Below, piece by piece: positions 31 to 38,259 of a stretch of DNA of 64,000 nt. Below the pieces are notes generated by a model. That model saw nothing but the letters and a program-made list of their open reading frames with translations, made no database searches and was not told the origin of the DNA. Origin of the DNA: Elusimicrobiaceae bacterium (lineage in GTDB: Bacteria > Elusimicrobiota > Elusimicrobia > Elusimicrobiales > Elusimicrobiaceae); the NCBI GenBank assembly GCA_017534965.1, contig JAFXVA010000008.1, positions 139,409 to 203,408 of the forward strand, read 5' to 3'. The first letter of the stretch is position 1. Every line of letters starts with the position of its first letter. The position numbers were made by a program, and so were the translations under genes.

Positions 31-582
31 TTACCTCACAAAAACGGCAGCAGCAACAACGGTTGTCCAAACGCCGTCAACGCAGATGGCAGATTGGGTA
101 ATGTTTGTGCTTTTAACAATTTTACCGCTCATTTTCCAAATTTCTTCTTTTTGGTTCCAAGTGGTATTGTTATCAAATTCAATACCAAGGGTGGTAGATA
201 ACATCATGGCAGCCAAATCTTCGGCATAATCACCGGCTTTTTGGTCTGCTTCGCCAAAACTATGGTGTTCTGAAATATAGCCGTGGGTGTTTCTATCTTT
301 AGGAATAGCAAGACCGACGGATGCAGAAATTAAACGCCTGTTTTCATTGCTGGTATTGCGGCTGATAACACAGTGCAATATTTGACCGGGATGTAATTTT
401 TCAAGACCTTTATTTACCGTTACGACTTTGCAGCGCGGCGGGAAGATACTTGATACCGGCACTAAATTGAATTTTGCAATTTTAGCATCTCTGAGAGCTT
501 CCTCAAAGCTTGCTAATTTTTCTTTATGTCTGCCAACACCTTTTGTAAGGAATATTTCCTTAGGAACAAACGCTTCGTACAT
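31..582 (-). CDS. pdaD: Pyruvoyl-dependent arginine decarboxylase
   Basis: The 183-residue protein matches the pyruvoyl-dependent arginine decarboxylase family, which converts arginine to agmatine for polyamine synthesis or acid resistance. The family is made as a proenzyme that cleaves itself between two serines, and the second serine becomes the pyruvoyl group. Here the pair is Ser44-Ser45 in VPVSSIFPP, and the following sequence fits the large-subunit fold (ISRNTSNENRR, then SVGLAIP). The length is normal for the family. The start has a GAGG-type ribosome site about 9 nt upstream. It is transcribed away from the M3 peptidase gene, with a palindrome in the shared upstream region. Confidence 0.9.
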   Translation of the reverse strand: MYEAFVPKEIFLTKGVGRHKEKLASFEEALRDAKIAKFNLVPVSSIFPPRCKVVTVNKGLEKLHPGQILHCVISRNTSNENRRLISASVGLAIPKDRNTHGYISEHHSFGEADQKAGDYAEDLAAMMLSTTLGIEFDNNTTWNQKEEIWKMSGKIVKSTNITQSAICVDGVWTTVVAAAVFVR

Positions 583-612
583 GTTTTCTTTTCCTCTTGT
601 TTTTATTATCTA

Positions 613-626
613 CCCTTTTAAAAGGG
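613..626. promoter_or_regulatory. 14-bp perfect palindrome between divergent genes
   Basis: CCCTTTTAAAAGGG is a perfect inverted repeat in the 93-bp gap between the divergently transcribed pdaD and M3 peptidase genes. Its position fits an operator or a small hairpin in the pdaD leader. No regulator can be assigned from the sequence. Confidence 0.35.
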
Positions 627-675
627 ATAATTTATTTTATAAAATATTATAACAAAAATATAAGGAAGTTAAAAT

Positions 676-2712
676 ATGAAATTTTTAAAAATTATTTTGC
701 CTTTGTTTTTTACAACGCTATTAATGGCAGGAGAAAATGTTATGAATATGTATAATCCCGACGGAACTTTACACTTTAATTATAAAGCAGAAGAGCTTGA
801 ACCAAGCGAAAAAGCCGCAAGAGAAATTTTAGAAAAAGACCTTGCAAAAATTGTTGCCCTACCCAAAGAAAGCAGAACTTTTGAAAATACTTTGCTTGCT
901 TACGACGAAGCTTTTGATAAATATTCCAAATCACTTGGACAGGCAGGTTTTCTTGCTTATGTTTCTACCGACGAGAAACTTAGAAATGCCGCCCTTGCCC
1001 TTGAAGAAAAAATAAGTAATTATATGGTGGAAGTTGCCACAAGAAAAGATATTTACCAGGCGTTTAAAGATTATGCGGATACCAATCCTACCCTTCCTAA
1101 AATAGAAGCAAAAATGTTAAAAGATGCAATGATTGGTTTTAGAAAAAGCGGTTTGATGTTAGACGATAAAGCTTTGGAAACTTTTAAAGATTTACAAAAA
1201 AAGAAATCAAAAAATTCAATAGAGTTTTCCAAAAATATAAGAGAGTATAAAGACACTCTTGCCGTTACAAAAGAAGAACTTGCCGGTATGGGCCAAGATT
1301 ATATAAATCGTCTGGAAAAAGATGAAAACGGCAAATATATTATTACTTTAAACTATCCCGATTATGTGCCTTTTATGTTAAACGCCGACGATGATAATGC
1401 AAGAAAACAACTTGAAGAAAAATATTCAAAACGCGGTGGCGTGCAAAATATTTCTTTGTTTGAAGATAATTTATTTTTACGCTATCAGACGGCAAAATTA
1501 CTTGGTTATAAAACCCACGCCCACAACCGCCTTGATACACGCATGGCAAAAACACCTGAAAATGTTATGTCTTTCTTACAAGATTTAGAAAAGAAATTAA
1601 AACCTCTTGCCAAAAAAGAAGAAAAAGAACTTTTAAAATATAAGACGGAAAAGACAGGTGAAAAAACAAAAAAAATAGAAACTTGGCAAAGCGGTTATTG
1701 GTCTAATAAATACAAAAAAGAACACTATGATATTGACGCTGAAAAAATAAAAGAATATTTCCCCACCGACTATGTTATTAATAATATGCTTGAAATTTTT
1801 GGCAATTTGTTTGATGTCAAATTTGAAAAAGCAAATATTGATACTTGGCATAAAGATGTTGTTGCCTATAAAGTTATTGATAACGAAAAGAAAGAAATTA
1901 TCGCCTATGTTTATATGGATCTTTATCCTCGTGACGGAAAATATAAACACGCCGCTTGTTTTGATTTAGTCAGCGGTAAATTGTTAAAAGACGGAACTTA
2001 TCAAAAGCCGTTTACGGCGATTGTCGCAAACTTAAATCCCCCCTCTAAAGATACTCCTTCTTTACTTAAACACGACGAGGTTGAAACCCTTTTCCACGAG
2101 TTTGGGCATGTCTTGCATAATGTTTTAACAGAGGCAAAATATTCTTCAATTTCCGGCACAGCAACAAGTATGGATTTTGTGGAAGTTCCTTCCCAAATGC
2201 TTGAAAATTGGGTTTGGCAGCCGGAAGTTTTAAAGAAAATTTCTAAACATTATAAGACGGGCGAACCTTTAAGCGACGAAACTATAAACAAAATGATTGC
2301 CGCAAAACAATATGCAACGGGTTCTTTTTATTTAAGACAAAACTTCCTTGCCCAAATTGATATGCGCTATCATTTGACTAAGAAGAAAATTGATTCCACG
2401 GAATATTGGTCTAAATATTCTAAAAAAATCAGAGGGCATAAGTTAAGAAAAGGGGCTTACCCTCAGGCGAGTTTTGATCACTTAATGGGTGGCTATGATG
2501 CCGGGTATTATGGCTATTTATGGGCCGAAGTTATCGCTCAAGATTTCTTTAGCGAATTTGAAAAACACGGCATTTTTAATAAAGATATCGGCAAAAAATA
2601 CCGCAAAGAAATTTTGGCCGTCGGTGGCAGTTATGACGAAGAAGAACTGGTTAAAAATTTCCTCGGGCGTAAAGTGTCAAATGAGCCATTCTTAAAAACC
2701 ATTGGGTTTTAA
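676..2712 (+). CDS. M3-family zinc metallopeptidase (oligopeptidase A / Dcp-like), exported
   Basis: The 678-residue protein has the HEFGH zinc-binding motif at residues 474-478, and a downstream glutamate in the MDFVEVPSQ segment, as in M3 peptidases (thimet oligopeptidase, Dcp, oligopeptidase A). These enzymes cut short peptides. Residues 1-19 form a hydrophobic signal-like segment with no lipobox, so periplasmic action is likely and dipeptidyl carboxypeptidase (Dcp) activity is plausible. The length is typical. An AAGGAAG ribosome site precedes the start. It stands alone, ahead of the GH13 gene and divergent from pdaD. Confidence 0.9.
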   Translation: MKFLKIILPLFFTTLLMAGENVMNMYNPDGTLHFNYKAEELEPSEKAAREILEKDLAKIVALPKESRTFENTLLAYDEAFDKYSKSLGQAGFLAYVSTDEKLRNAALALEEKISNYMVEVATRKDIYQAFKDYADTNPTLPKIEAKMLKDAMIGFRKSGLMLDDKALETFKDLQKKKSKNSIEFSKNIREYKDTLAVTKEELAGMGQDYINRLEKDENGKYIITLNYPDYVPFMLNADDDNARKQLEEKYSKRGGVQNISLFEDNLFLRYQTAKLLGYKTHAHNRLDTRMAKTPENVMSFLQDLEKKLKPLAKKEEKELLKYKTEKTGEKTKKIETWQSGYWSNKYKKEHYDIDAEKIKEYFPTDYVINNMLEIFGNLFDVKFEKANIDTWHKDVVAYKVIDNEKKEIIAYVYMDLYPRDGKYKHAACFDLVSGKLLKDGTYQKPFTAIVANLNPPSKDTPSLLKHDEVETLFHEFGHVLHNVLTEAKYSSISGTATSMDFVEVPSQMLENWVWQPEVLKKISKHYKTGEPLSDETINKMIAAKQYATGSFYLRQNFLAQIDMRYHLTKKKIDSTEYWSKYSKKIRGHKLRKGAYPQASFDHLMGGYDAGYYGYLWAEVIAQDFFSEFEKHGIFNKDIGKKYRKEILAVGGSYDEEELVKNFLGRKVSNEPFLKTIGF

Positions 2713-2781
2713 TAAAAACCTTGCTTTTTATCTCTTAAAGTGGTATAACATTTTTAGAGAGAAAAAAGGGGTATTTTAAAT

Positions 2782-4251
2782 ATGAGAACCAATCCTCATG
2801 TTTTAGAAGTAAATGCAAAAATCTGGTTTCATCAAATGAAAAGAGACTTCGGCCGTTCTATCGTAACCTTGGCCGATATCCCGGAAAGTTATATCGTCAA
2901 ATTGAAATCCGCCGGATTTGATGCTTTTTGGCTTATGGGCGTGTGGGAAGAAAGTTTAACTTCCCGTCAGATTGCCCGTAACGATGGCCCCATTAACGAT
3001 TACCTTAAAAAAATTGTGCCTAATTATACGAAGGAAGATGTTTTTGGTTCACCTTATTCTATTTGTTCTTATAATGTCGATAAATATTTAGGCACCAATG
3101 AAGATCTTTTAAAATTTAAAGCAAAACTTAACGAAAATGATATTTCTTTAATTTTGGATTTCGTCGGTAATCATTTTTCCGTAGATCATCCTTTAACTTG
3201 GCAAGAGCCGGAAATGTTTATTTCTTCTAAAGAAGATCCCGGTGATAGTAAACTTTTTTATCAAAATAAAAACGGCGTTTGGATTGCCCACGGCAAAGAC
3301 CCTTATTTTGACCCGTGGACAGATAGCGCACAACTGAACCTTTTTAATCCTAAAACAAGGCAAATGTTGGAAGATTATTTAATGCAAATTGCCCCCCTCT
3401 GTGATGGCCTTAGATGTGATATGGTTATGCTTATGCTAAATAATGTCCACAGAGATAATTGGGGCAAATATCTTAAATTTGATACTCCAAATGAAGAATT
3501 TTGGCCCGGAGCAATACAAAAAGTTAAGGAAAAATACCCTTCCTTCACTTTTATTGCCGAAGTTTATTGGGGGCTTGAGGCGGAAATTCAATCTCTCGGT
3601 TTTGATTTTACTTATGATAAAATTTTGTATGACCGCTTATTATTCTCTAATCCAACCCAAATTGCAGCACATTTAGGGGCAGAACATCTTTATCAAAAAA
3701 AGACTTTAAGATTTATCGCAAATCACGACGAAGAAGTCCCCCTTGCTGCTTTTGGTTCTAAAGAAAGATCTTTTGCAGCAGCAGCCGTTGCCTATACTTT
3801 ATCTGGGGCGCGTTTATTTACGGCCTCTCAACTTTGCGGTGATAAGTTCCGTTTGCCAATACAATACCAACCTTTAGTTAGGGATGTCGATATTGAAGTT
3901 AAAACCTTCTACATGAAGTTTTTAGATATTATTAACCATCCTTGCTTCCATGGCGGTCAATGGGCTTTAAAATCGGCAAAATCTTGCGACGGGCAAAATT
4001 TATCTTATCAAAATATTTTAACTTGGACTTGGACTCAAAATACTACTTGCAAAGTTGTAGTAATTAATTATAGTGCCGAGCAATCAAAATTTAGAATTTG
4101 TGTAGATAAGCTTCCTAAGACGGAAAATATTTTCTTAAAAGATGAATTTACGGGAAGTATGATTTCTTCTTCTTATGAAGAATTAAAGAATAAAGGGCTT
4201 GAAATTGAAATGGCTCCTTATGAGTTTAAAATATATTCCGTTGATTTTTGA
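2782..4251 (+). CDS. GH13 alpha-amylase family glycoside hydrolase
   Basis: The 489-residue protein carries the four conserved GH13 regions: DFVGNH (126-131), GLRCD with the predicted nucleophile Asp213, IAEVYW with the acid/base Glu260, and ANHDE with Asp316. The C-terminal 80 residues look like the usual beta-sandwich domain. There is no signal peptide, so it probably acts on intracellular alpha-glucans such as glycogen or maltodextrin. Exact specificity (amylase, transferase or trehalose-related) cannot be read from the sequence. AAAGGGG precedes the ATG. A TreT-like glycosyltransferase lies about 3.3 kb downstream, but in a separate unit. Confidence 0.85.
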   Translation: MRTNPHVLEVNAKIWFHQMKRDFGRSIVTLADIPESYIVKLKSAGFDAFWLMGVWEESLTSRQIARNDGPINDYLKKIVPNYTKEDVFGSPYSICSYNVDKYLGTNEDLLKFKAKLNENDISLILDFVGNHFSVDHPLTWQEPEMFISSKEDPGDSKLFYQNKNGVWIAHGKDPYFDPWTDSAQLNLFNPKTRQMLEDYLMQIAPLCDGLRCDMVMLMLNNVHRDNWGKYLKFDTPNEEFWPGAIQKVKEKYPSFTFIAEVYWGLEAEIQSLGFDFTYDKILYDRLLFSNPTQIAAHLGAEHLYQKKTLRFIANHDEEVPLAAFGSKERSFAAAAVAYTLSGARLFTASQLCGDKFRLPIQYQPLVRDVDIEVKTFYMKFLDIINHPCFHGGQWALKSAKSCDGQNLSYQNILTWTWTQNTTCKVVVINYSAEQSKFRICVDKLPKTENIFLKDEFTGSMISSSYEELKNKGLEIEMAPYEFKIYSVDF

Positions 4252-4327: not shown

Positions 4328-5284
4328 ATGGAACAGACGCTTTTAATTACTGGTATTTTTGCTTTTATTTTTGCCAAAATTTCTATATATTTAAAAAATA
4401 AAAAGAAATTAGATAACAAAAATAATTTAAAAATATGGGCTTTTGCCGGTATTACCTTAGCAGGTATTTTAGCGTATTATATCTTCAATTTTATGGCTAC
4501 TAACGGGGTTAGCGGTGGCCTTCCTATAAAACATACTATATTTCTTTGTGCGATAGTTTTAGGTCTTATTTATTGGTCTTACTCCCAAATAAAAAAAGGT
4601 AATAAAAAAGTTTATTCTACAATTTTAGATTGGGCAGAAACAATTTATTTTGCTGCTTTTTTTGCTTCTATTGTTATGTTCTTTTTTGTCCAAGCTTTTA
4701 AAATCCCTTCCGGCTCTATGCGTAATACTCTTTTAGAAGGGGATAATTTGTTTGTAAATAAAATAGTTTATGGCTTTAGACTTCCTTTTATGAAAGATAA
4801 ACTCGTAGAGTTTAAACCTATAAAAAGGGGGGATATAATTATTTTTAAATTTCCAGCTGAAAATAAACAACAAATAAATTGTGGTGAGAGCCAATATGGC
4901 AGAGATTTTGTTAAAAGAGTTATTGGACTACCCGGTGATAAAGTAGAACTCCGAAATAAACAACTCTATATAAACGATGAGCTTATGCCTACGCAAGATT
5001 ATGAGGTTTATGACGACCATCTAAGAGAAGAATATATGGTTAATATTCCCCAAGAAGAATACCAAAAAATGTGGGAAAGCCGAACTTTAGAACATACCTT
5101 AGGCCTTTATTTGAGAGATTATTTCGGGCCTGTTATTGTCCCACAGGGGCAATATTTTGCTATGGGCGACAATAGAGATTTTTCTTGCGACTCTCGTTTT
5201 TGGGGCCCTGTCCCTAAAGAAAATATTAAAGGCAAAGCTTGGCTTTTACATTGGCCTTTAAATAGAATCAGATTTATCAAATAA
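4328..5284 (+). CDS. lepB: Signal peptidase I
   Basis: This is a type I signal peptidase (S26), which removes signal peptides from exported proteins at the membrane. The catalytic serine is in IPSGSM and the lysine in FVKRVIGLPGD. The C-terminal GDNRDFSCDSRFWGPVP box is intact. The N-terminal part is unusually long, with about four hydrophobic segments before the catalytic domain where one or two are usual. The gene starts ATGATG. The second ATG lies 5 nt after AGGAG (4318-4322), against 2 nt for the first, so I chose 4328. Confidence 0.92.
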   Translation: MEQTLLITGIFAFIFAKISIYLKNKKKLDNKNNLKIWAFAGITLAGILAYYIFNFMATNGVSGGLPIKHTIFLCAIVLGLIYWSYSQIKKGNKKVYSTILDWAETIYFAAFFASIVMFFFVQAFKIPSGSMRNTLLEGDNLFVNKIVYGFRLPFMKDKLVEFKPIKRGDIIIFKFPAENKQQINCGESQYGRDFVKRVIGLPGDKVELRNKQLYINDELMPTQDYEVYDDHLREEYMVNIPQEEYQKMWESRTLEHTLGLYLRDYFGPVIVPQGQYFAMGDNRDFSCDSRFWGPVPKENIKGKAWLLHWPLNRIRFIK

Positions 5285-5294
5285 TACTTATTTT

Positions 5295-5310
5295 GTTTTC
5301 ACGTGAAAAT
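5295..5310. promoter_or_regulatory. parS-like site 1
   Basis: The segment contains TTTTCACGTGAAAA (5296-5309), a perfect palindrome. It shares the 12-bp core TTTCACGTGAAA with the bacterial parS consensus TGTTTCACGTGAAACA, and only the outer two bases on each side differ. It lies about 120 bp upstream of parA, which fits ParB binding for chromosome segregation. Confidence 0.7.
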
Positions 5311-5337
5311 TTTTAATAAAATAAAAACTTCTTTCTA

Positions 5338-5353
5338 GTTTTCACATGAAAAC
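5338..5353. promoter_or_regulatory. parS-like site 2 (one central change)
   Basis: GTTTTCACATGAAAAC repeats site 1 43 bp downstream, with CACATG in place of CACGTG at the centre. It may be a weaker ParB site. The two sites together occupy the 145-bp lepB-parA gap. Confidence 0.55.
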
Positions 5354-5382
5354 TTTTTACCCCCCCTTTTTTTATATAATGC

Positions 5383-5412
5383 TTGACAAAAGACATTATA
5401 TTATGTTTTAAT
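5383..5412 (+). promoter_or_regulatory. Predicted parA promoter
   Basis: TTGACA (5383-5388) is followed after 18 bp by TTTAAT (5407-5412), and the parA ribosome site AAGGAGA (5419-5425) comes next. An alternative TATAAT lies at 5375-5380. Confidence 0.5.
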
Positions 5413-5429
5413 ATTAGTAAGGAGAATAT

Positions 5430-6263
5430 ATGGCAGAAATAGTTTGCGTAGCAAATCAGAAAGGCGGTGTTGGTAAAACAACAACTTCCGTCAATCTTTC
5501 ATACGCTCTTGCCTGTTTAGGACAAGAGGTTTTACTTATTGATTTAGACCCGCAAAGCAACGCTAGTTCCGGCGTTGGCGTTGTGGTAAAAGAGGGGGAA
5601 AAGTCTGTATATAATTTACTTACAAAAACCGCTCCTTTTAGGGAAGTAGTTCGCCAAACAAGCAATGAACTTTTAGATGTTTTGCCCGCTAGCAAAGATT
5701 TAGCCGGTGCGGAAGTTGAGTTCGTTAATATACAAGGTAGGGAAAAGGTTCTAAAAGAAACCCTCAGCACTATAAGAAATATGTATAATTTTATTATTAT
5801 AGATTGCCCCCCTTCTTTAAGTTTGCTTACAATTAATGCTTTGGTTGCGGCCGATAGCGTTATTACTCCTATACAATGTGAGTATTATGCTATGGAAGGT
5901 CTTGCCCATTTTATAAATACAACCGGCAAGGTTAAACAATTTTTAAGCCCTAACTTAAAGGTTGATGGCGGTATTTTAACAATGTATGATGCCAGAATGA
6001 ATTTGGCTAATCAGGTTAAAGATGAAGTTTCTAAATTCTATGGTGATAAAGTTTACAAAACCGCTATTCCAAGAAATGTTCGCTTGGCGGAAGCACCAAG
6101 TTATGGACAAAGTATTATAGAATACGATCCCTCTTGCAGAGGAACAAAAGCTTATATAGAACTTGCCAAAGAGTTCTTAATTCGCAGAGGTTTTAAAGAA
6201 GAAGATTTGAGAGATTATAATTTAGCAACGGCACAAAATGCCGGCTTTGATTTTGGAGGTTAA
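5430..6263 (+). CDS. parA: Chromosome-partitioning ATPase ParA (Soj)
   Basis: The 277-residue protein is a deviant Walker-A ATPase with KGGVGKTT (K11-T17 region), IIDCPPSL as the A' / Walker B region, and the ARMNLANQV and NVRLAEAPSYG segments typical of chromosomal ParA/Soj. It moves the origin region together with ParB bound at parS. AAGGAGA lies 4 nt before the ATG. parB follows 6 nt after its stop, and two parS-like sites precede it. Confidence 0.95.
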   Translation: MAEIVCVANQKGGVGKTTTSVNLSYALACLGQEVLLIDLDPQSNASSGVGVVVKEGEKSVYNLLTKTAPFREVVRQTSNELLDVLPASKDLAGAEVEFVNIQGREKVLKETLSTIRNMYNFIIIDCPPSLSLLTINALVAADSVITPIQCEYYAMEGLAHFINTTGKVKQFLSPNLKVDGGILTMYDARMNLANQVKDEVSKFYGDKVYKTAIPRNVRLAEAPSYGQSIIEYDPSCRGTKAYIELAKEFLIRRGFKEEDLRDYNLATAQNAGFDFGG

Positions 6264-28905: not shown

Positions 28906-31288
<2,383 letters not shown>

Positions 31289-31291
31289 TTC

Positions 31292-32380
31292 ATGGAAAAT
31301 AATGCCCCTGACAAAAAATATTATGAAGTTACAGATGTTAAAAGTCAAAAGAAATATCAAGTTGAAAAAAGTTTTTCTTCCTATGAGCCTATAAGTAAAA
31401 AATTAGATATTTTAAATTTTGACCCCAATCAATTTAACCGAGTTTATTATAATGAAATTGCTCTAATTCTCTTAGCCGAGCAGCGTTCTTCATCATCAGA
31501 AAAAGAAGGTCTTGCTCTTACAAAAAGAGTTTGTTGGACTCTTATGATAGGCAGCTCTTATTTTATTATTATGTGTTTTATAGCTGCGTTTACTGAAAAA
31601 CAAGCAGACAAAAGACTTGCCGCTTTAATCTTTGGTATTATTTTTCTTTGTTCTCATATTGGTGTCTCTTCTTTTATGCTTTTTTCTGTAAGAAAAGTAG
31701 ATAGATATTCTCTTAAAGAGAGATTCTTTTCTTTTTTCAATGTGAAATATTCAAGATATACTCATATTGAAAGGGAATACAACAAAGCGCATATATATGG
31801 TAAAACACTAAGTGAAGATTTTGATCTTGCAATGGAAAAAATGGCAGTAAGTTCGGTAAAATTTACAAACGATGAAGGTTTAACAATTCCTTATAATGAC
31901 AAAACCCTTGAACTTGTGGAATTAAATGCCCGTATAGGCTCAAAAAGCCGCTTGCTGGTTTCTTATTTTATCAATAAAAATTTTAAGGGTGAAACAATAA
32001 TTAAGCCTATAAAAGAAGCCTCAAAATCTAATTTTGCCTCAAAGCAAGAAGTTTATTTAGAAGATTCTGTTTTTAATAAAAATTTTAAAATATTTGCTGA
32101 TGACCAAGTGGAAGCTCGCTATCTTTTAACTACTGCATTTATAGATAGACTTTTAAGTTTCCAAATGGCGCATAATTGCACTATAAGCGTTCTTTTTAGC
32201 AATATTAGCAAAAAATCAAATATATTTTTATGTATAGATTTTGGTAAAGATTTCTTTGAACTCCCAAAGGGCAAAGGTTGGATACACGATTCTTCACATT
32301 TCTATAAGATTTGTCAAGAAATAAGAGAAATAGCCGAAATTCTTGACGCTCTTAAACTAGACCAAGATATTGGGATGTAA
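31292..32380 (+). CDS. DUF3137-like membrane protein, subtype A, copy 1
   Basis: This 362-residue protein is the first of four tandem paralogs. Subtype A opens with YEVTDVKSQKKYQV. A pair of transmembrane helices follows (about 85-105 and 110-130). The cytosolic C-terminal domain has FINKNFKGETII and FADDQVEARYLLTTAFIDRLL, a pattern I associate with DUF3137. It ends LKLDQDIGM. The gene starts 3 nt after ligA and uses GGAG within ligA. The link to LemA downstream is a known genomic association of this family; the function is not known. Confidence 0.7.
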   Translation: MENNAPDKKYYEVTDVKSQKKYQVEKSFSSYEPISKKLDILNFDPNQFNRVYYNEIALILLAEQRSSSSEKEGLALTKRVCWTLMIGSSYFIIMCFIAAFTEKQADKRLAALIFGIIFLCSHIGVSSFMLFSVRKVDRYSLKERFFSFFNVKYSRYTHIEREYNKAHIYGKTLSEDFDLAMEKMAVSSVKFTNDEGLTIPYNDKTLELVELNARIGSKSRLLVSYFINKNFKGETIIKPIKEASKSNFASKQEVYLEDSVFNKNFKIFADDQVEARYLLTTAFIDRLLSFQMAHNCTISVLFSNISKKSNIFLCIDFGKDFFELPKGKGWIHDSSHFYKICQEIREIAEILDALKLDQDIGM

Positions 32381-32392
32381 AAGAGAAAAATT

Positions 32393-33427
32393 ATGAACGA
32401 AGAACAAAAAAGTATAAATGTTTTTGAAATGTCAGGTTATCAGTTTAATAAGTATTTTTCTGATACTATTTTGCCAAATTTAATAGATATTGCTTCTGCT
32501 AATGTGGAATATTTTTCGGAACACGCAAAAAATAAAAAAATAGGTATAACTCCCCAGTTTGCGATTGGAAAATATCCTCTTTATATAGGGCTTTTTATAA
32601 TGTTTTTAGTTTTGCCGAAGTTATTTTTAGTTTGTGTGGTAATATGGTTTATTGCGCAATTTTTTAAAAAAGATAAACCGAGTTGGAAAGATAAAAATGA
32701 AACCCTTAATGGTGAGATTAGGAAGAAAGTTTTTTCCTATTTCAATATCGACATAAAGCGCAATTTAGAGCAACATCCTTTTGATTTTCCTATGCTTAAG
32801 CTAATGGGAATAAGTGGCTATAAGGTGGAAGATGTTTTAGATTTTACCTATAAAGATTTGCCTATACAGATAAGTGAAACGCTAATTCTTGATAAGGGGC
32901 AGAATCCTCTTGCCTCTGTTATTTCTTTTTCCACAAAATTAAATAAAAATTTTAAAGGACGCACGACAATTGGCTATGCACCTCAAAATAGTGGCAGAGG
33001 AGGCCCCCCTTTAATACAAATGAATAAACAAGCAAATGCCAGCGCTCCAATTTATATCGGACAAAATTTTTCTTCTGTAGAGCAATCTTCCCAGGAAAGA
33101 GTCCTTTTGGAAGATGTTGTTTTTAATGAAAAATTTTATGTTTTTTCTTCAGATCAAGTGGAAGCGCGTTATCTTTTAACACCTACTTTTATGAATAGAA
33201 TGTTAAAATATAACACTTCGCAAACATCTTGTATTACAACCGTGCTGTTTGATAACATGTTTTCTCCTACGGCAAATGTTTTCTTAACCATTTATACGGG
33301 CAAAGATTTTTTCGAAAATAGCGCAGATCCTTTAAGTGCCAAAGTTTATTGGGATATTTTACAGGACATAAAAGAAATTGTCCAAGTAGTAGAAGGTCTT
33401 AAACTAGACCAAGATATCGGAATGTAG
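32393..33427 (+). CDS. DUF3137-like membrane protein, subtype B, copy 1
   Basis: This 344-residue paralog starts with the subtype B segment VFEMSGYQFNKYFSDTILP. It has a hydrophobic region of one or two helices around residues 62-90. The domain contains TKLNKNFKGRTTI, then a low-complexity insert of about 30 residues. FSSDQVEARYLLTPTFMNRML follows, and it ends LKLDQDIGM. It begins 12 nt after copy A1 with only a weak GAGA ribosome site. Confidence 0.7.
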   Translation: MNEEQKSINVFEMSGYQFNKYFSDTILPNLIDIASANVEYFSEHAKNKKIGITPQFAIGKYPLYIGLFIMFLVLPKLFLVCVVIWFIAQFFKKDKPSWKDKNETLNGEIRKKVFSYFNIDIKRNLEQHPFDFPMLKLMGISGYKVEDVLDFTYKDLPIQISETLILDKGQNPLASVISFSTKLNKNFKGRTTIGYAPQNSGRGGPPLIQMNKQANASAPIYIGQNFSSVEQSSQERVLLEDVVFNEKFYVFSSDQVEARYLLTPTFMNRMLKYNTSQTSCITTVLFDNMFSPTANVFLTIYTGKDFFENSADPLSAKVYWDILQDIKEIVQVVEGLKLDQDIGM

Positions 33428-33437
33428 GGATAATTTT

Positions 33438-34553
33438 ATGATAAATAACGAAAACGATAATTATGAAATTATAGATATAAAGAATCAGGCAAAATATAAA
33501 GTTTGGCAAGAAACATCAGATAGAAAAAGATATAGTTCTGATTTAAGAAACCCGTATAACAATATAGATTTTTCTAATTTTGAAGCACAAAATTACGGCA
33601 AAGTTTTTAAAAGGACAATTTCCCCACAAGTAAAACAAAAAGAAAAATCAATGCTAGCTAAAATTATCGGCATACTTGCTATCGTTTATTTTATTATGTG
33701 GTTGATATTGTCGGCAGTGCTTTTTATGATAGATTTATTTGGTCCTTCTGAAATTCATTATTCCTTGCAGGAAGACACCTCTGTTTTTGCTCCTTTTATT
33801 GGGCTTTTTGCCCTTGTGTTTTTTATACTATCTTTATTCTTTTTATTTTTAGTTCCGAAATTTTTATTGGGTTTTTTTATACAAAAAGCTACGCCGAAGA
33901 TCTCGGACGCTCTTTATAAAAGTCTTAGCAAACCAACCCTTGCAGATTTAAAGAAGAAATTTTTTAATGCTTTAAACATAGAATATTATCCTATTAATAC
34001 GGTTTTATCTCAAGTGGATAATATAAGCGAACTCATGGCTAAAATAAACCCCGCTTACAAAAAATTTGTCAGAGCGGATGATTTTATTTCTCTTAATCAT
34101 AATAATTTGCCTATTAGCATTGTGGAGTATAGATCAGTCGGACGCGAAGCCAGCAGTTGCGTTTTTATAGCAACAAAAATAAATAAGCATATTACCAGAG
34201 AAACTTTTGTAAAAGCAAAAGATTCTTCTATACAAAGTGTTTCTTTTTCAGATAATTTTTTGGTGCAATCTTTTAACCCGGCGGAAGCACGCACCCTTTT
34301 AACCCCTGCTTTTAGGGCAAGATTGTTAAAGTATAGAAAAGAGCATAATAATTGCCAAATTGATATTTTGTTTAGCAATAAAGTATCTGATAAAGAAAAT
34401 ATTTTTATTTGTATTCCTTCTCAAAAGAATTATTTTGAAATGCCCGAACAAGATTGGAAGGACGAAAGCAAGTCTTATCAAATCATCAGCGAAATAAGAG
34501 AAATTTTGCTTATAGTTGACGCCCTTAAACTAGACCAAGATATAGGAATGTAA
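33438..34553 (+). CDS. DUF3137-like membrane protein, subtype A, copy 2
   Basis: The 371-residue protein begins YEIIDIKNQAKYKV, matching copy A1. It has two transmembrane helices (about 75-97 and 118-145). The core shows TKINKHITRETFV and FNPAEARTLLTPAFRARLL, so the usual DQVEARYLL is changed to NPAEARTLL. This is the most altered core of the four, yet the LKLDQDIGM end is intact. It lies 10 nt after copy B1. Confidence 0.7.
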   Translation: MINNENDNYEIIDIKNQAKYKVWQETSDRKRYSSDLRNPYNNIDFSNFEAQNYGKVFKRTISPQVKQKEKSMLAKIIGILAIVYFIMWLILSAVLFMIDLFGPSEIHYSLQEDTSVFAPFIGLFALVFFILSLFFLFLVPKFLLGFFIQKATPKISDALYKSLSKPTLADLKKKFFNALNIEYYPINTVLSQVDNISELMAKINPAYKKFVRADDFISLNHNNLPISIVEYRSVGREASSCVFIATKINKHITRETFVKAKDSSIQSVSFSDNFLVQSFNPAEARTLLTPAFRARLLKYRKEHNNCQIDILFSNKVSDKENIFICIPSQKNYFEMPEQDWKDESKSYQIISEIREILLIVDALKLDQDIGM

Positions 34554-34557
34554 AACT

Positions 34558-35565
34558 ATGGTAGAACAAAATAAAAATACACAACTGCAAAAAGATATTT
34601 TTGATTTAAGCGAAGCGGAATTTATTTATTATTTTCAAGAAAAGATATTTTCTTTATATTGTAGTGTAAAAAACAAAAAGATATATCAAAAAGTAGCCGA
34701 CCCTGCTAGTTGTTTAAAGTCTATTTTTTTTGTTTTTATTTCCATAGTATTATTAATTCTGTTATTTTGGTTTATAATGACTTCGTTTACTAATATGTCC
34801 TTTTTAATCGCTTTGACATCTATGCTGTTTTTAGCCTTTTGGTGTCGTATAGTTGCTAGATTCTTCATTAGCAAGATAAATATAATAAAAAAAGAAAGTC
34901 CAATTAGCGAAGAAGCTATTAACTTACATTTTAAAAAAGCAGTTTTTAATATGCTTGGTTTATCCCATGAGGATATCAATTTAGGGATAGATATGCGAGT
35001 TTTAATACGTTTTTATGATATCTTTAAACAGCTTTTTGGCCAAGTAAATGGAAATATAGAAGAAATTTTTACGGGTGCTTACCATAAAATACCTTTTACG
35101 ATGGTCGAACAATTTAACGGCATTTCTCACGATGTCTTACTTATAACAAAAACATCAAAATCTTTTAAAGGGGAAATACAAATTGTCAGTTCTACAAGGC
35201 CGACACTTGGTAAGGGCTTCCAGCCGGTTAATTTGGAAGATGTTAAATTTTCAAAAGAGTATAATGTCTATGCTCAAGACCAAGTGGAAGCCCGCTATCT
35301 TTTAACCCCTGCCTTTTTGGAAAGAGTAAAAAGATACAGAAATGTAAAACTCTGTGATATGGAAATTGCTTTTTCTCAAAAATATCCGCAATTTGGCAAT
35401 GTTTTTTTTCATATTAAAACAGGCATGGATATGTTTGAATTGCCCGCAAATAATATGGGTAGTAAAGAAGCAAGGGCCAAAGCAGTATATAATATTTTAT
35501 TTGAAATAAAAGATATTCTTAGAATCGTAGATACTCTTAAACTAGACCAAGATATAGGGATGTAA
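34558..35565 (+). CDS. DUF3137-like membrane protein, subtype B, copy 2
   Basis: The 335-residue protein opens with IFDLSEAEFIYYFQEKIF, matching the B1 N-terminus. It has two transmembrane helices (about 55-75 and 80-100). The core has TKTSKSFKGEIQI and YAQDQVEARYLLTPAFLERVK, and it ends LKLDQDIGM. It begins 4 nt after copy A2. lemA follows after 48 nt with a separate promoter-like element. Confidence 0.7.
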   Translation: MVEQNKNTQLQKDIFDLSEAEFIYYFQEKIFSLYCSVKNKKIYQKVADPASCLKSIFFVFISIVLLILLFWFIMTSFTNMSFLIALTSMLFLAFWCRIVARFFISKINIIKKESPISEEAINLHFKKAVFNMLGLSHEDINLGIDMRVLIRFYDIFKQLFGQVNGNIEEIFTGAYHKIPFTMVEQFNGISHDVLLITKTSKSFKGEIQIVSSTRPTLGKGFQPVNLEDVKFSKEYNVYAQDQVEARYLLTPAFLERVKRYRNVKLCDMEIAFSQKYPQFGNVFFHIKTGMDMFELPANNMGSKEARAKAVYNILFEIKDILRIVDTLKLDQDIGM

Positions 35566-35577
35566 TTTAAAAAATAA

Positions 35578-35586
35578 TGTTATAAT
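35578..35586 (+). promoter_or_regulatory. Extended -10 promoter before lemA
   Basis: TGTTATAAT (35578-35586) sits 27 nt before the lemA ATG and ahead of its AAAGGAGG site. lemA may thus be transcribed alone as well as with the DUF3137-like genes. Confidence 0.45.
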
Positions 35587-35613
35587 ATAAAAAAACAAAG
35601 GAGGTTGTAATAT

Positions 35614-36186
35614 ATGGGTGCAGTAATTTTACTTTTAATAGTAGTAGTTTCTGTTGCAACAATAATTTTATATTCAAGTTATGTCAAAGTTGTTAAAAGT
35701 GGCAATGCTGTCAGAGAAGCCAAATCAAGTATAGATGTTCAATTTAGAAAACGCTATGATCTTTTGCCTAATATTTTGACAATCGCCCAAAGATTTATGA
35801 CGCACGAAAAAGAAATTTTTACAAAAATTACCGAACTTCGCAGCCAAGCAATAAATGCCCCTGCCGGCAGCCAAGAGGCCTTTGAGTGTAATAAAAAACT
35901 TGATAGCGTGCTCGGTCAGCTAAAAGTTTCTATGGAAAATTACCCCACTTTAAAATCTGATGCCACAATGACCCAAGCAATGAAAACTTATAACGAAGTG
36001 GAAGAACATATCGCCGCCGCAAGAAGATTTTACAACTCCGCTATTACTCAACTTAGAAATTATGTAATGATTTTTCCTACCAGTTTATTTAAAGGTTATG
36101 TGCAGGAAGAAATGCAAAATTCTTATTATGAAATAGAAGATAAAAATATGACTAAAGCCGTTAATGCCGCCGACTATTTAAAATAG
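35614..36186 (+). CDS. LemA family protein
   Basis: The 190-residue protein has an N-terminal transmembrane helix (about 2-22) and the LemA helical domain: VREAKSSIDVQFRKRYDLLPNI, ENYPTLKSDATM and AARRFYNSAITQLRN. LemA proteins are small membrane-anchored helical bundles of unclear function, often next to DUF3137 or TPM-domain genes. A strong AAAGGAGG site precedes it. It closes the nusB-ligA-DUF3137 cluster. Confidence 0.9.
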   Translation: MGAVILLLIVVVSVATIILYSSYVKVVKSGNAVREAKSSIDVQFRKRYDLLPNILTIAQRFMTHEKEIFTKITELRSQAINAPAGSQEAFECNKKLDSVLGQLKVSMENYPTLKSDATMTQAMKTYNEVEEHIAAARRFYNSAITQLRNYVMIFPTSLFKGYVQEEMQNSYYEIEDKNMTKAVNAADYLK

Positions 36187-36205: not shown

Positions 36206-36247
36206 AAAAAACCTTTGCTTTCATAAAAAGGAAGCAAAGGTTTTTTT
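36206..36247. terminator. Bidirectional terminator after lemA
   Basis: AAAAAACCTTTGCTT (36206-36220) pairs with AAGCAAAGGTTTTTT (36232-36246). Confidence 0.85.
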
Positions 36248-36255
36248 ATGATTAA

Positions 36256-36762
36256 TTAATCTATTTGCGAAAAAAGTAATTTGTTTGCTTTTTGCCAAGA
36301 TTTTTTCAAGTCCACTTTTTTATATTGTTTATAATTAAGATTATCGGAAACAATTTTAATTGATTTAATTTTTGGGAAAATCGTTGCCAAAATATATAAT
36401 TCCATATCAAAAATGCCATTATGTTTAGATTTTTCCACAAAATCAGTTGAGGTATAGCATTTAACTTTTGATTTTTTATCAAGGGTGTAAGTTCTATCTT
36501 TAGCAAAGTTTGAAGGTCTTTCCCTGCCTGATTTGCCGACGACTACAACCTCGCCCACATCAAAAGCATTAGCACCGCAGTAGCCGATATTAAAAAACTT
36601 ATCGTCTTCTTTAAAAACACCTTTTTTAAATAGTTTAATTATGGTTCTTAAGGTTGCATATTCGCCAAAACCGGTAATTATTATTTTTGCTTTACTTTCC
36701 AATTTTTTAGGTATTTTAACTTCCTTTGCTTCTAATTCTTCTGCTATAAAAATATAATTCAT
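36256..36762 (-). CDS. Nucleoside phosphorylase-superfamily protein, short
   Basis: The 168-residue protein shows the order of MTA/SAH nucleosidase-type motifs: NIGYCGANAFDVGEVVVVG (the usual NxGxAGG...GDVV), YTSTDFV, FDMELYILA (the FDME substrate motif) and IKIVSDN with the catalytic Asp. It is about 60 residues shorter than MTAN, and the N-terminal part is reduced. A nucleoside or futalosine-related hydrolase role is possible but not proven. The ankyrin gene lies 25 nt upstream, so they may be co-transcribed. Confidence 0.6.
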   Translation of the reverse strand: MNYIFIAEELEAKEVKIPKKLESKAKIIITGFGEYATLRTIIKLFKKGVFKEDDKFFNIGYCGANAFDVGEVVVVGKSGRERPSNFAKDRTYTLDKKSKVKCYTSTDFVEKSKHNGIFDMELYILATIFPKIKSIKIVSDNLNYKQYKKVDLKKSWQKANKLLFSQID

Positions 36763-36787: not shown

Positions 36788-37498
36788 CTATTTCGCTCCG
36801 GCGGATTTTAATAATTCAATAATTTCTTTGTTTCCTATCTTTTCGGCATATCTTAATGGCGAAGTCGCAAAATTACAATATGGGTTTTTAAAATCTGCCC
36901 CTTCGTCTATTAACTTTTTAGTTGCTTCTAAATCTTCTCTTATAATGGCAGAACAAAAATCGTCTTTTACTCCAGCAGAAAGTTGCTTTTTAACAATATC
37001 TATACGCTTTGCTTTGCTAGCCATATGTAAATATATTTCTTTATTAATATCAGCCCCATTTTCTATTAAAATTTTTATAATTTCAGGATTCTTATCTTTC
37101 TCTAAAGCAATTGATACTACAGAAGGAAAATCTCCTAACGGGCAATCTAATATAAATATTCCTGGAGCATGACACTTATAGTATGGCAAATTGCCATCTG
37201 CTCCTTGTTCAATGAAATATTTAACTGCTTCTGTATTATTTGCTTTTACGGCATAATATAGAGGAGTGTAATGATTGTAATAAGCATTTATTCCTTCTTT
37301 TAAATTTAATTTCTTTAATTTTTCAAAATCATTTGCTTTAAGATATGCTTTTATTTTGGCAGCAGTAGAAAAATGTTTATAATAAAAATCATGAATTTCT
37401 ACTCCGAAAATTAATAGAAGGAATAATATTATTCCAATTAAAAAAAGGACGAGTATAGTCTTAACTAAAAATATAAGAAATGAAAGAAATTTCTTCAT
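36788..37498 (-). CDS. Membrane-anchored ankyrin-repeat protein
   Basis: The 236-residue protein has a long N-terminal transmembrane helix (about 5-32), then ankyrin-like repeats: YTPLYYAVKANNTEAVKYFI, VSIALEKDKNPEIIKILIEN and SPLRYAEKIGNKEIIELLKS. Ankyrin repeats bind other proteins; the partner is unknown. Its ATG overlaps the stop of the upstream TIGR02757-like gene. Confidence 0.8.
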   Translation of the reverse strand: MKKFLSFLIFLVKTILVLFLIGIILFLLLIFGVEIHDFYYKHFSTAAKIKAYLKANDFEKLKKLNLKEGINAYYNHYTPLYYAVKANNTEAVKYFIEQGADGNLPYYKCHAPGIFILDCPLGDFPSVVSIALEKDKNPEIIKILIENGADINKEIYLHMASKAKRIDIVKKQLSAGVKDDFCSAIIREDLEATKKLIDEGADFKNPYCNFATSPLRYAEKIGNKEIIELLKSAGAK

Positions 37499-38259
37499 AA
37501 ATTCTCCTTAATGTTTTTCTTTTTAAAATCTGGGTGTATGCCAAAACGCGTAATACAAAAATCGTATTTTATCGGGTCCTTTTGGCAAAATTTTGCAAGA
37601 GAAGCGGAAATTTCTAAAGCGGTTTTCATATCGGTTTGATTGCGTTTTGTTAGGCCAAGTGCGCGCGCGTTTCTATGCATATGAACATCAAGTGGCACAA
37701 TAAGGCACGCCGTCGGTATTTTGGTCCATAAACCGCAATCCACATTATCTTTACGCACGCACCAGCGCAAAAACAAATTTATTCTTTTAAGTGCGCTTTT
37801 TTTATCCGGGTCCGGCACTAGAGATTTTACATTCCCAAAAGAACGCAAGGTTTTGCAAAAATTATTTAAAGCAAATAAAAAATCTCTTTTCCCTTGCAAA
37901 TAGAACTTATAAAAAAGATTTTCCAAAGATTTTTCTTTTTCCAAAATTGTTTTTATCGCAAAAAGGAAATTGACAAGTTCTTCTTCGGTCGTAAAGCGGT
38001 ATTTAAAATTTTTAAAATCTTTTTTAAAATCTTGTTTTGTTTTGGTAAAAAGATATTTTTTGGGAGAAGATCCCATAACCGCAAAAATGCCCGTCAAATT
38101 TTTTATTATCTGCTTAACATTGCCGTAAGCAAAACACGCACTAATTAAAGCAACAACCTCTCTATCGCCGATATTTTTATATCGGTAAACAAACATTAAG
38201 GGGTCGGGTTCAATCAAATCAAAGCGGTTATATTTTTTATAAAGTATTTCCAAGTCCAT
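37495..38259 (-). CDS. TIGR02757/DUF2400-type protein
   Basis: The 254-residue protein matches the TIGR02757 family by VYRYKNIGDREVVALISACFAYGNVKQI, NLFLRWCVRKDNVDCGLW, PLDVHMHRNARALGL and the Cys/Asp-containing end YDFCITRFGIHP. The family may have a helix-hairpin-helix glycosylase-like fold, with no proven function. The start at 38259 (MDLEILYKKYN) is the family start; longer in-frame versions would run backwards through murE. Only 25 bp separate it from the divergent murE. Confidence 0.8.
   Translation of the reverse strand: MDLEILYKKYNRFDLIEPDPLMFVYRYKNIGDREVVALISACFAYGNVKQIIKNLTGIFAVMGSSPKKYLFTKTKQDFKKDFKNFKYRFTTEEELVNFLFAIKTILEKEKSLENLFYKFYLQGKRDFLFALNNFCKTLRSFGNVKSLVPDPDKKSALKRINLFLRWCVRKDNVDCGLWTKIPTACLIVPLDVHMHRNARALGLTKRNQTDMKTALEISASLAKFCQKDPIKYDFCITRFGIHPDFKKKNIKENL

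Follow-up and report, generated by a model that had tools for sequence, protein, structure and literature searches.

Four DUF3137 genes followed by LemA

What does a protein family with almost no literature do when it occurs in four consecutive copies, and how does such a row arise? The question is posed by a rumen bacterium (Elusimicrobiaceae, contig JAFXVA010000008.1), in which a stretch of 64,000 nucleotides, here called the window, carries four DUF3137 genes in a row (31292-35565), then a gene of the LemA family and a strong terminator hairpin (Table 1). The family assignment, made in the first-pass annotation by reading the sequence, is borne out by Pfam: all four proteins match DUF3137 (PF11335), with E values of 1e-23, 3.3e-19, 8e-13 and 4.8e-19 for genes 1 to 4 and scores of 48.9 to 84.2 bits, above the curated cut-off of 26.1. 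They are the only matches to this profile in the whole genome at E <= 10. The LemA protein (PF04011, E 5.7e-34, 117.5 bits against a curated cut-off of 26.2) has its hydrophobic helix at residues 1 to 19, and its gene lies 48 nt behind gene 4 on the same strand. The surrounding genes we take, judging by their sequences, to be dapA, dapB, murC, nusB, ligA, murE, TIGR02757 and valS. Short gaps and the terminator suggest that the array is co-transcribed behind ligA. The hairpin was absent from the output of a simple terminator scan; a similar sequence lies 3' of LemA in one sister species (G015). A promoter scan returned 36 promoter-like sites versus 23.4 expected, so no promoter was assigned, and a 168-aa frame at 36256-36762 matched no Pfam family above cut-off.

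Table 1. Features of the DUF3137-LemA locus, in window coordinates
Feature	Position	Strand	Details
DUF3137 gene 1 (A1, W1)	31292..32380	+	362 aa; N-terminal extra prefix; hydrophobic membrane region; DUF3137 core at the C-terminus
20-nt sequence CTTAAACTAGACCAAGATAT	32351..32370	+	3' end of gene 1; encodes LKLDQDI
DUF3137 gene 2 (B1, W2)	32393..33427	+	344 aa; lacks the prefix; has a long loop rich in G/N/S
20-nt sequence CTTAAACTAGACCAAGATAT	33398..33417	+	3' end of gene 2
DUF3137 gene 3 (A2, W3)	33438..34553	+	371 aa; recent exchange with the G027 lineage
20-nt sequence CTTAAACTAGACCAAGATAT	34524..34543	+	3' end of gene 3
DUF3137 gene 4 (B2, W4)	34558..35565	+	335 aa; orthologue of G015_3
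20-nt sequence CTTAAACTAGACCAAGATAT	35536..35555	+	3' end of gene 4
LemA family gene	35614..36186	+	190 aa; single N-terminal hydrophobic helix
Intrinsic terminator hairpin, operon end	36207..36245	+	-20.9 kcal/mol, z -6.3, 0/200 shuffles as good
Ankyrin-repeat gene	36788..37498	-	236 aa; hydrophobic N-terminus; Pfam

Alternation by descent

The A-B alternation is real by descent. An unrooted whole-length tree of the four window copies and four copies from sister species splits genes 1 and 3 with their orthologues from genes 2 and 4 with their orthologue (support 97/96), and the same split is found with the N half (93/92) and the C half (71/72). The rival pairing of A1 with B1 is rejected over the full length (p-AU 0.027), although not on either half (0.072 N, 0.252 C). 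When outgroups are added, the tree does not resolve a B clade (63/54). The split between A1 and A2 is older than the sister species; that between B1 and B2 is likewise older, if B1 stands outside the pair of B2 and G015_3.

The N-termini had been described as two alternating types. They alternate, but they are not unrelated: the start of B1 (NVFEMSGYQFNKYFSDTILPNLI) aligns with the segment that follows the prefix in an A protein of a sister species (G015_2, DIFNIDPYQFSQLYNNKIVPALI), with none of 2000 shuffles as good, so that homology is detectable. The remaining eight A/B segment pairs gave p values from 0.0185 to 0.57 in the same comparison. The A types carry an additional leading prefix of the form YExxDxKxQ, about 40 residues long. 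An A-like prefix in the B lineage (N-terminal stretch of G015_3) was considered and dropped, only one of five comparisons falling below 0.05 (p 0.0085).

Every copy has a hydrophobic region N-terminal to the core, resolved into two clearly separate segments in A1 and A2, whereas in B1 and B2 the hydrophobic windows adjoin or overlap. Net charges in A2 (+3/-2 flanking TM1, -2/+3 flanking TM2) point to a cytosolic C-terminal domain; the patterns of A1 and B1 give no clear topology. The DUF3137s of Pontibacillus and Thermus have a further hydrophobic hairpin, absent from the window copies; in B1 the G/N/S-rich loop occupies its position. In the alignment, the window copies share the core motif (D-Q-x-)E-A-R and a C-terminal LxL...I motif with these distant members and with those of G168, a distant Elusimicrobiota genome. 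EAR..T is present in all eight copies from the window and the sister species, A2 having NPAEAR instead of DQVEAR.

Reordering and exchange among sister species

Copy number and order, surveyed in two sister species, vary at the same locus. In G015 the order is ligA-A2-A1-B2-LemA, and in G027 ligA is followed by A2 with neither LemA nor any B copy; the ankyrin-repeat gene is absent there as well. The spacer between ligA and A2 is identical in both. A-B-A-B is thus confined to the window genome among the three compared. Orthologues in G015 share 61% (A1, with G015_2), 38% (B2, with G015_3) and 80% (LemA) of their amino acids; none was seen for B1 in the two sister loci, and B1 alone as a query found no relatives in the genome-contig collection. 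A2 has been recently exchanged between species, since its dS to the G027 copy (G027_1) is 0.14, versus 0.51 in ligA, 0.68 in murC and 0.42 in murE.

The first-pass annotation had explained the array by duplication of an A+B pair, with a complex of A and B as a possibility; in its full form this reading makes the duplication a tandem one and A and B obligate heteromers. The A/B split in the tree and the order in the window genome would fit this, but the sister loci (A2-A1-B2 and a lone A2, with a common ligA-A2 junction), the unresolved B clade and the presence of A2 in G027 without any B argue against it. Because the sister orders differ, the A1/A2 split is older than the species and A2 was recently exchanged, duplication of an A+B unit is unsupported, and we regard the whole reading as improbable.

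DUF3137 orthologues evolve fast, with dN/dS of 0.23, 0.39 and 0.45 versus 0.04 to 0.08 in murC, nusB, ligA and murE. Such raised ratios, together with a sister species that keeps a single copy, might indicate redundant paralogues drifting under relaxed constraint and having no distinct roles. This seems rather unlikely to us: every frame is intact, the EAR..T motif is universal among the eight copies, seven of them have the C-terminal LKLDQDI, and dS between paralogues reaches 1.2 to 1.6, i.e., the copies have long been retained.

The locus also has the look of a hypervariable island between conserved genes, with DNA identity to G015 of 54 to 69% in the alignable 300-nt windows of 31283-35183 versus 76 to 91% upstream. 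It is present in 3 of 18 genomes of the genus. These features, the exchange of A2 and the location of plasmid homologues close to transposase or recombinase genes could suggest a conflict or defence locus, whose membrane proteins were diversified by recombination in an arms race with phages or competitors. Against this, PADLOC recovered no families with the five proteins (E <= 0.1), PHROGs gave no convincing match to the four DUF3137 proteins (nor anything useful, as with NCBIfam), a phage search found no match, the array sits behind housekeeping genes and dN/dS is below 1. A conflict or defence role is, in our judgment, a long shot.

LemA neighbors and ankyrin fusions in other bacteria

The first-pass annotation named LemA as a neighbor of DUF3137 in other bacteria, and this held. 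A plasmid of Pontibacillus sp. ALD_SL1 (NZ_CP062975.1) has LemA-DUF3137, and two of Thermus brockianus, pTB1 (NZ_CP016313.1) and pTbrSNM4-1b (NZ_AP025594.1), have LemA-DUF3137-DUF3137. As in the window, the genes are adjacent and on one strand; however, LemA comes first in all three plasmid records and in G168, but last in the window and G015, and it accompanies one or two DUF3137 copies on the plasmids versus four here. The pair is not obligate, because LemA is far commoner (53 of 60 genomes of the family, versus 12 of 60 with DUF3137), the G027 locus has no LemA and most of the Elusimicrobiota DUF3137 loci examined lack it (LemA HMM matches in 2 of 18). The window LemA also matches the model of the magnetosome protein MamQ (E 4.1e-13), but its 49 bits are far below the MamQ cut-off of 250, which makes it a LemA family member and not a MamQ. 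According to PMC4902198, no LemA member other than MamQ is tied to a process, and MamQ may serve as a hub in the membrane.

Fusions of DUF3137 with ankyrin repeats were found in four of eight relatives examined, and the ankyrin-repeat protein encoded downstream is a possible partner.

Predicted fold

Structure models of B1 and A2 resemble two accessory proteins of membrane machines. The pair of models is of modest quality, with mean pLDDT values of 68.5 and 68.6 and seven alignment rows each. For B1, the best Foldseek match was TtfA, the MmpL3 transporter accessory factor (6t84, E 3.4e-4, probability 1.00), the sole one below 1e-3, with TM scores that are not high (TMq 0.29, TMt 0.47). VIA, in which Z values of 7 to 8 are common without kinship, also placed TtfA first (Z 11.1, rmsd 3.5, 170 of 178 residues), followed by three chains of ER translocons (Z 8.8, 7.7 and 7.3), the next unrelated row being at Z 4.0. 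With A2 the same two led (TtfA Z 8.7, a CCDC47-type chain Z 8.5). Foldseek found no match below 1e-3 for A2, and TtfA was not among the best 50 rows listed; rows for CqsB2, SadB and PR-10 allergens were dismissed as noise. The translocon chains (7tm3, 6w6l, 9i78) are probably CCDC47, and the aligned range of 9i78_4 (76-368) fits the CCDC47 stretch 76-370 given in PMC12572126.

TtfA is described as membrane anchored, with a cytosolic C-terminus, and as needed for MmpL3 transport (PMC6593404). Its layout resembles the one predicted for DUF3137, in which a membrane anchor precedes a globular domain, probably cytosolic, that may have the TtfA fold. It differs in having a single transmembrane helix, and its BLAST homologues, per its authors, are in mycolate producers (PMC6593404). 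CCDC47, of the ER multipass and SND3 translocons, likewise belongs to a larger machine, as a cytosolic subunit anchored in the membrane (PMC12572126); it differs in being eukaryotic and in its C-terminal latch/coiled-coil helices, which reach the ribosome exit tunnel, while both models stop just after one terminal helix and have no such helices. At the sequence level 6t84 was matched neither by a 4-row profile (E <= 5) nor by a 12-row one (E <= 10), and the DUF3137 profile search found no link to CCDC47. Literature searches found no paper treating both CCDC47 and TtfA and, in titles and abstract openings, nothing tying either to bacterial DUF3137.

As the best fold match is TtfA, for which its authors suggest possible direct binding of the lipid TMM (PMC6593404), DUF3137 might bind lipid or other hydrophobic cargo for delivery to a transporter, the cargo differing by paralogue, and not act as a scaffold. 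Weak START-domain rows for A2 would agree with this, but at Z 5.0 and lower they lie within noise, and the other fold match, CCDC47, is described as a translocon subunit. We consider a cargo carrier unlikely, if worth keeping in mind.

A proposed role

We tentatively favor, at a little short of an even chance, DUF3137 as a membrane-anchored cytosolic adaptor that works with LemA and that in this clade has been expanded and reshuffled by recombination. The hydrophobic region probably forms a hairpin of two helices, its two ends facing the cytosol, and would tether the TtfA/CCDC47-like globular domain to the inner face of the membrane as a cytosol-facing accessory subunit. Together with LemA, in what we infer to be a complex, it may serve as a scaffold, docking onto larger membrane machines (for transport or for the insertion of membrane proteins or lipids) and modulating them. 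An ancestral LemA-DUF3137 pair would have grown into a row of as many as four paralogues, probably transcribed together behind ligA. Recombination enlarges, shrinks and reorders this array, sister-species exchange included, and its members diverge fast, presumably to suit different partners.

The predicted resemblance to accessory parts of lipid export and membrane-protein insertion gives a first guess at the role of DUF3137 and, with the recurring LemA neighborhood, a concrete hypothesis for an anonymous family, testable in cultured Thermus and Pontibacillus. In a search of 5.39 million papers, DUF3137 is named in 2, once in each. If the hypothesis is true, LemA, nearly without an assigned function, would be connected to membrane-machine assembly. 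The array itself demonstrates amplification and sister-species shuffling of the module. A broader and more doubtful extension, which we think unlikely as a whole, is that DUF3137 is a widespread bacterial branch of the CCDC47/TtfA fold, LemA-DUF3137 a general accessory module for membrane machines, perhaps the bacterial equivalent of the CCDC47-type translocon accessory, and the array of this clade a combinatorial system, made by recombination, whose four subunits are interchangeable.

A shared 3' tail

All four genes carry the same 20-nt sequence, CTTAAACTAGACCAAGATAT, near their 3' ends, four exact matches versus 0.02 expected by chance, with none elsewhere in the window at up to 3 mismatches. 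Among the 18 genomes of the genus (<= 2 mismatches) it occurs at seven places in only three genomes, always at this locus; in the genome-contig collection it was found on two contigs, those of the sister genomes, and in viral contigs not at all. A DNA-level role (gene conversion, recombination site or RNA element) was rejected, because tail columns with one shared codon are not significantly enriched (6/8 versus 11/24 elsewhere, Fisher p 0.23), the codons after the tail differ between copies and distant DUF3137s share related C-terminal peptides (LNLNTRIW, LELNVDIW). Protein-level constraint plus shared descent suffices to explain the tails. Slightly odd is the presence in all seven tails of CTA, a rare codon that accounts for 4% of Leu codons; in sister-genome comparisons CTA was retained in 9/23 and 6/16 cases.

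Gene array and neighbours

The four DUF3137 genes (PF11335; W1 to W4) and LemA are consecutive and on one strand, and all pass their Pfam cut-offs, which confirms the set described in the first-pass annotation. A profile search (E <= 10) found no further DUF3137 in the window's genome. The spacers are short, 3 nt between ligA and W1 and then 12, 10, 4 and 48 nt down to LemA. LemA is followed by a strong hairpin (z -6.3) that carries a T run; the hairpin is absent from the list of a simple terminator scan, and a similar hairpin sequence also follows LemA in the sister-species genome G015. We infer a single transcript that would run from the housekeeping genes through to the terminator after LemA.

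Positions of the array and of two downstream frames
Feature	Position	Strand	Evidence	Shared 20-nt 3' end
W1, DUF3137 (A1)	31292-32380	+	ORF, Pfam cut-off passed	32351-32370
W2, DUF3137 (B1)	32393-33427	+	ORF, Pfam cut-off passed	33398-33417
W3, DUF3137 (A2)	33438-34553	+	ORF, Pfam cut-off passed	34524-34543
W4, DUF3137 (B2)	34558-35565	+	ORF, Pfam cut-off passed	35536-35555
LemA	35614-36186	+	ORF, own family cut-off passed	
168-aa frame	36256-36762	-		
Ankyrin gene	36788-37498	-		

DUF3137 was detected in 14 of 340 genomes of the phylum (E <= 1e-8). Within the family, LemA is much commoner (53/60 genomes) than DUF3137 (12/60, E <= 0.01). A locally built LemA model had matches in two of the 18 fetched DUF3137 loci, several of them on short contigs, namely G015 and the distant Elusimicrobiota genome G168, where a frame-broken LemA is upstream of DUF3137. 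At the latter locus (155-3436) two frames hold the pieces of LemA, and another DUF3137, in divergent orientation, also looks broken, which could be assembly error or decay. All three plasmid records with a DUF3137 match have LemA directly upstream, overlapping DUF3137 by 4 nt in the Pontibacillus plasmid, and no match was found in the phage records searched. The window array is a new variant of a known LemA-DUF3137 gene pairing. In two Thermus brockianus plasmids another DUF3137 follows on the far side of a transposase insertion; in pTB1 the two DUF3137s share 61% identity (217/356). Transposase genes and TnpB lie between the tandem DUF3137s behind LemA in pTB1 (4784-5981), and transposase genes are placed likewise in the second plasmid.

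In four of the eight relatives examined, DUF3137 is fused to ankyrin repeats. The window's ankyrin gene, which encodes a hydrophobic N-terminus, is near the array and co-occurs with LemA and several DUF3137s; it is missing from the other sister genome, G027, which is also without the locus LemA. This is a hint, and no more, that the ankyrin protein might be a DUF3137 partner.

Descent and exchange of the copies

The window genome belongs to the same genus group as G015 and G027, and these three are the only ones of 18 genus genomes with DUF3137 after ligA, a count in which three others are not judgeable (the contigs of G037 and G039 end in or near ligA, and G025 keeps ca. 0.5 kb). A genome-wide search of those three found DUF3137 in G039 only, away from ligA. 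The same locus reads A2-A1-B2-LemA in G015 and A2 alone in G027, without LemA or the neighbouring ankyrin gene. The A-B-A-B order is therefore found in just one genome of the three, and one duplication of an A+B unit, the origin proposed in the first-pass annotation, is not the simplest account and finds no support in these loci. The ligA-A2 spacer is identical in G015 and G027, with a different junction in the window; LigA did not resolve the branching order of the three genomes.

The alternation of types itself was recovered. An unrooted tree of eight sequences (W1 to W4, three copies from G015 and one from G027) splits A (W1, W3, G015_1, G015_2 and G027_1) from B (W2, W4 and G015_3) with support of 97/96. 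Pairing W1 with W2 was rejected over the whole length (p-AU 0.027) and not rejected for the N half (0.072) or the C half (0.252). With four outgroups, the A clade was supported (91/91) and the B copies were not resolved as a clade (63/54), suggesting that A is the derived form and that B might be older. This fits the finding that the start of W2 is homologous to a segment of G015_2 located behind the A prefix (0/2000 shuffles); the other eight pairs of A and B N-terminal segments gave 0.0185 to 0.57 in the same test.

W3 and G027_1 have a dS of 0.14, against 0.51, 0.68 and 0.42 for ligA, murC and murE of the same genomes, and identical codons at 93% of 339 identical residues versus 76% of 607 in ligA (Fisher p 8e-12, from rounded percentages). 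The downstream 168-aa frame is also unusually close to G027 (95% same codons), so the exchange between species may have taken in a tract longer than W3. Similarity to the sister genomes downstream of LemA points to more exchange tracts. There, identity to G027 is 99% in the segment starting at 36403, and 37283-37583 is 100% identical to G015 over 300 nt. Between window and G015 orthologues, the DUF3137s are 61, 50 and 38% identical and LemA 80%; most flanking genes reach 82-98%, apart from two upstream frames (49 and 69%) and the ankyrin gene (73%). For dN/dS, the DUF3137s give 0.23, 0.39 and 0.45, LemA 0.15, and murC, nusB, ligA and murE 0.04-0.08; the 168-aa frame gives 0.20, at a low dS.

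Predicted fold and possible role

The part worth following is the fold. AlphaFold2 models built from 7-row alignments had a mean pLDDT of 68.5 (W3) and 68.6 (W2), with C-domains mostly at 70-90 and weak loops. For W2, the only Foldseek match below 1e-3 was TtfA, the mycobacterial MmpL3 accessory factor (6t84; E 3.4e-4, prob 1.00, TMt 0.47), and VIA gave Z 11.1 and rmsd 3.5 over 170/178 residues, followed by 7tm3_4 (8.8), 9i78_4 (7.7) and 6w6l_7 (7.3), the next row being 4.0. W2's two leaders came up again for W3 by VIA (Z 8.7 and 8.5), for which Foldseek returned no match below 1e-3. CCDC47 is the most likely identity of the three translocon chains, since 9i78_4 was aligned at 76-368 and CCDC47 was modelled over residues 76-370 in the SND3 paper (PMC12572126), and 6W6L was deposited with the TMCO1 translocon paper, which describes a globular cytosolic CCDC47 domain (PMC7505659). 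Profiles of 4 and 12 sequences retrieved neither TtfA nor CCDC47 as sequence relatives among solved structures. We therefore speak of a fold and stop short of homology: W2 probably shares the TtfA/CCDC47 fold, and its extension to the whole DUF3137 family is tentative.

TtfA, a membrane-anchored protein whose C-terminus is cytosolic, binds MmpL3, and MmpL3 transport depends on it (PMC6593404). CCDC47 is likewise a membrane-anchored, cytosolic translocon subunit (PMC7505659, PMC12572126), and the magnetosome protein MamQ, stated to be the sole LemA protein tied to a process, is a proposed hub organising other membrane proteins (PMC4902198). By analogy with these roles, and given the LemA-DUF3137 neighbourhood, LemA and DUF3137 could form a membrane scaffold that docks on larger membrane machines; the number of paralogues and their fast divergence would let one LemA serve several partners. 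DUF3137 is named in two papers of the literature surveyed, mostly outside subscription journals, and occupies one line of an expression table in one of them, PMC10434189; the same survey found no paper covering both CCDC47 and TtfA.

In all window copies, a hydrophobic region lies between an N-terminal segment and the DUF3137 core at the C-terminus. It consists of two clearly separated hydrophobic segments in W1 and W3, and of adjoining or overlapping ones in W2 and W4. The positively charged flank of a membrane helix faces the cytoplasm (positive-inside rule), and the net charges around the W3 helices (+3/-2 and -2/+3) would thus place both ends in the cytoplasm. The patterns of W4, G015_3 and G027_1 agree roughly with W3, and those of W1 and W2 are ambiguous. 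In the Pontibacillus and Thermus DUF3137s the core contains a further hydrophobic hairpin that the window copies lack, W2 having a long G/N/S-rich loop at its position. The invariant core of DUF3137s is centred on E-A-R, and the C-terminal LKLDQDIGM of the window copies is the counterpart of the LNLNTRIW and LELNVDIW ends of distant members. A2-type copies read NPAEAR or NPPEAR where the other types have DQVEAR or NQVEAR, and this variant may mark A2 as a subtype with a distinct function. All four window genes share an identical 20-nt 3' end, found otherwise only at the sister-species loci, each copy of it using CTA, a rare Leu codon.
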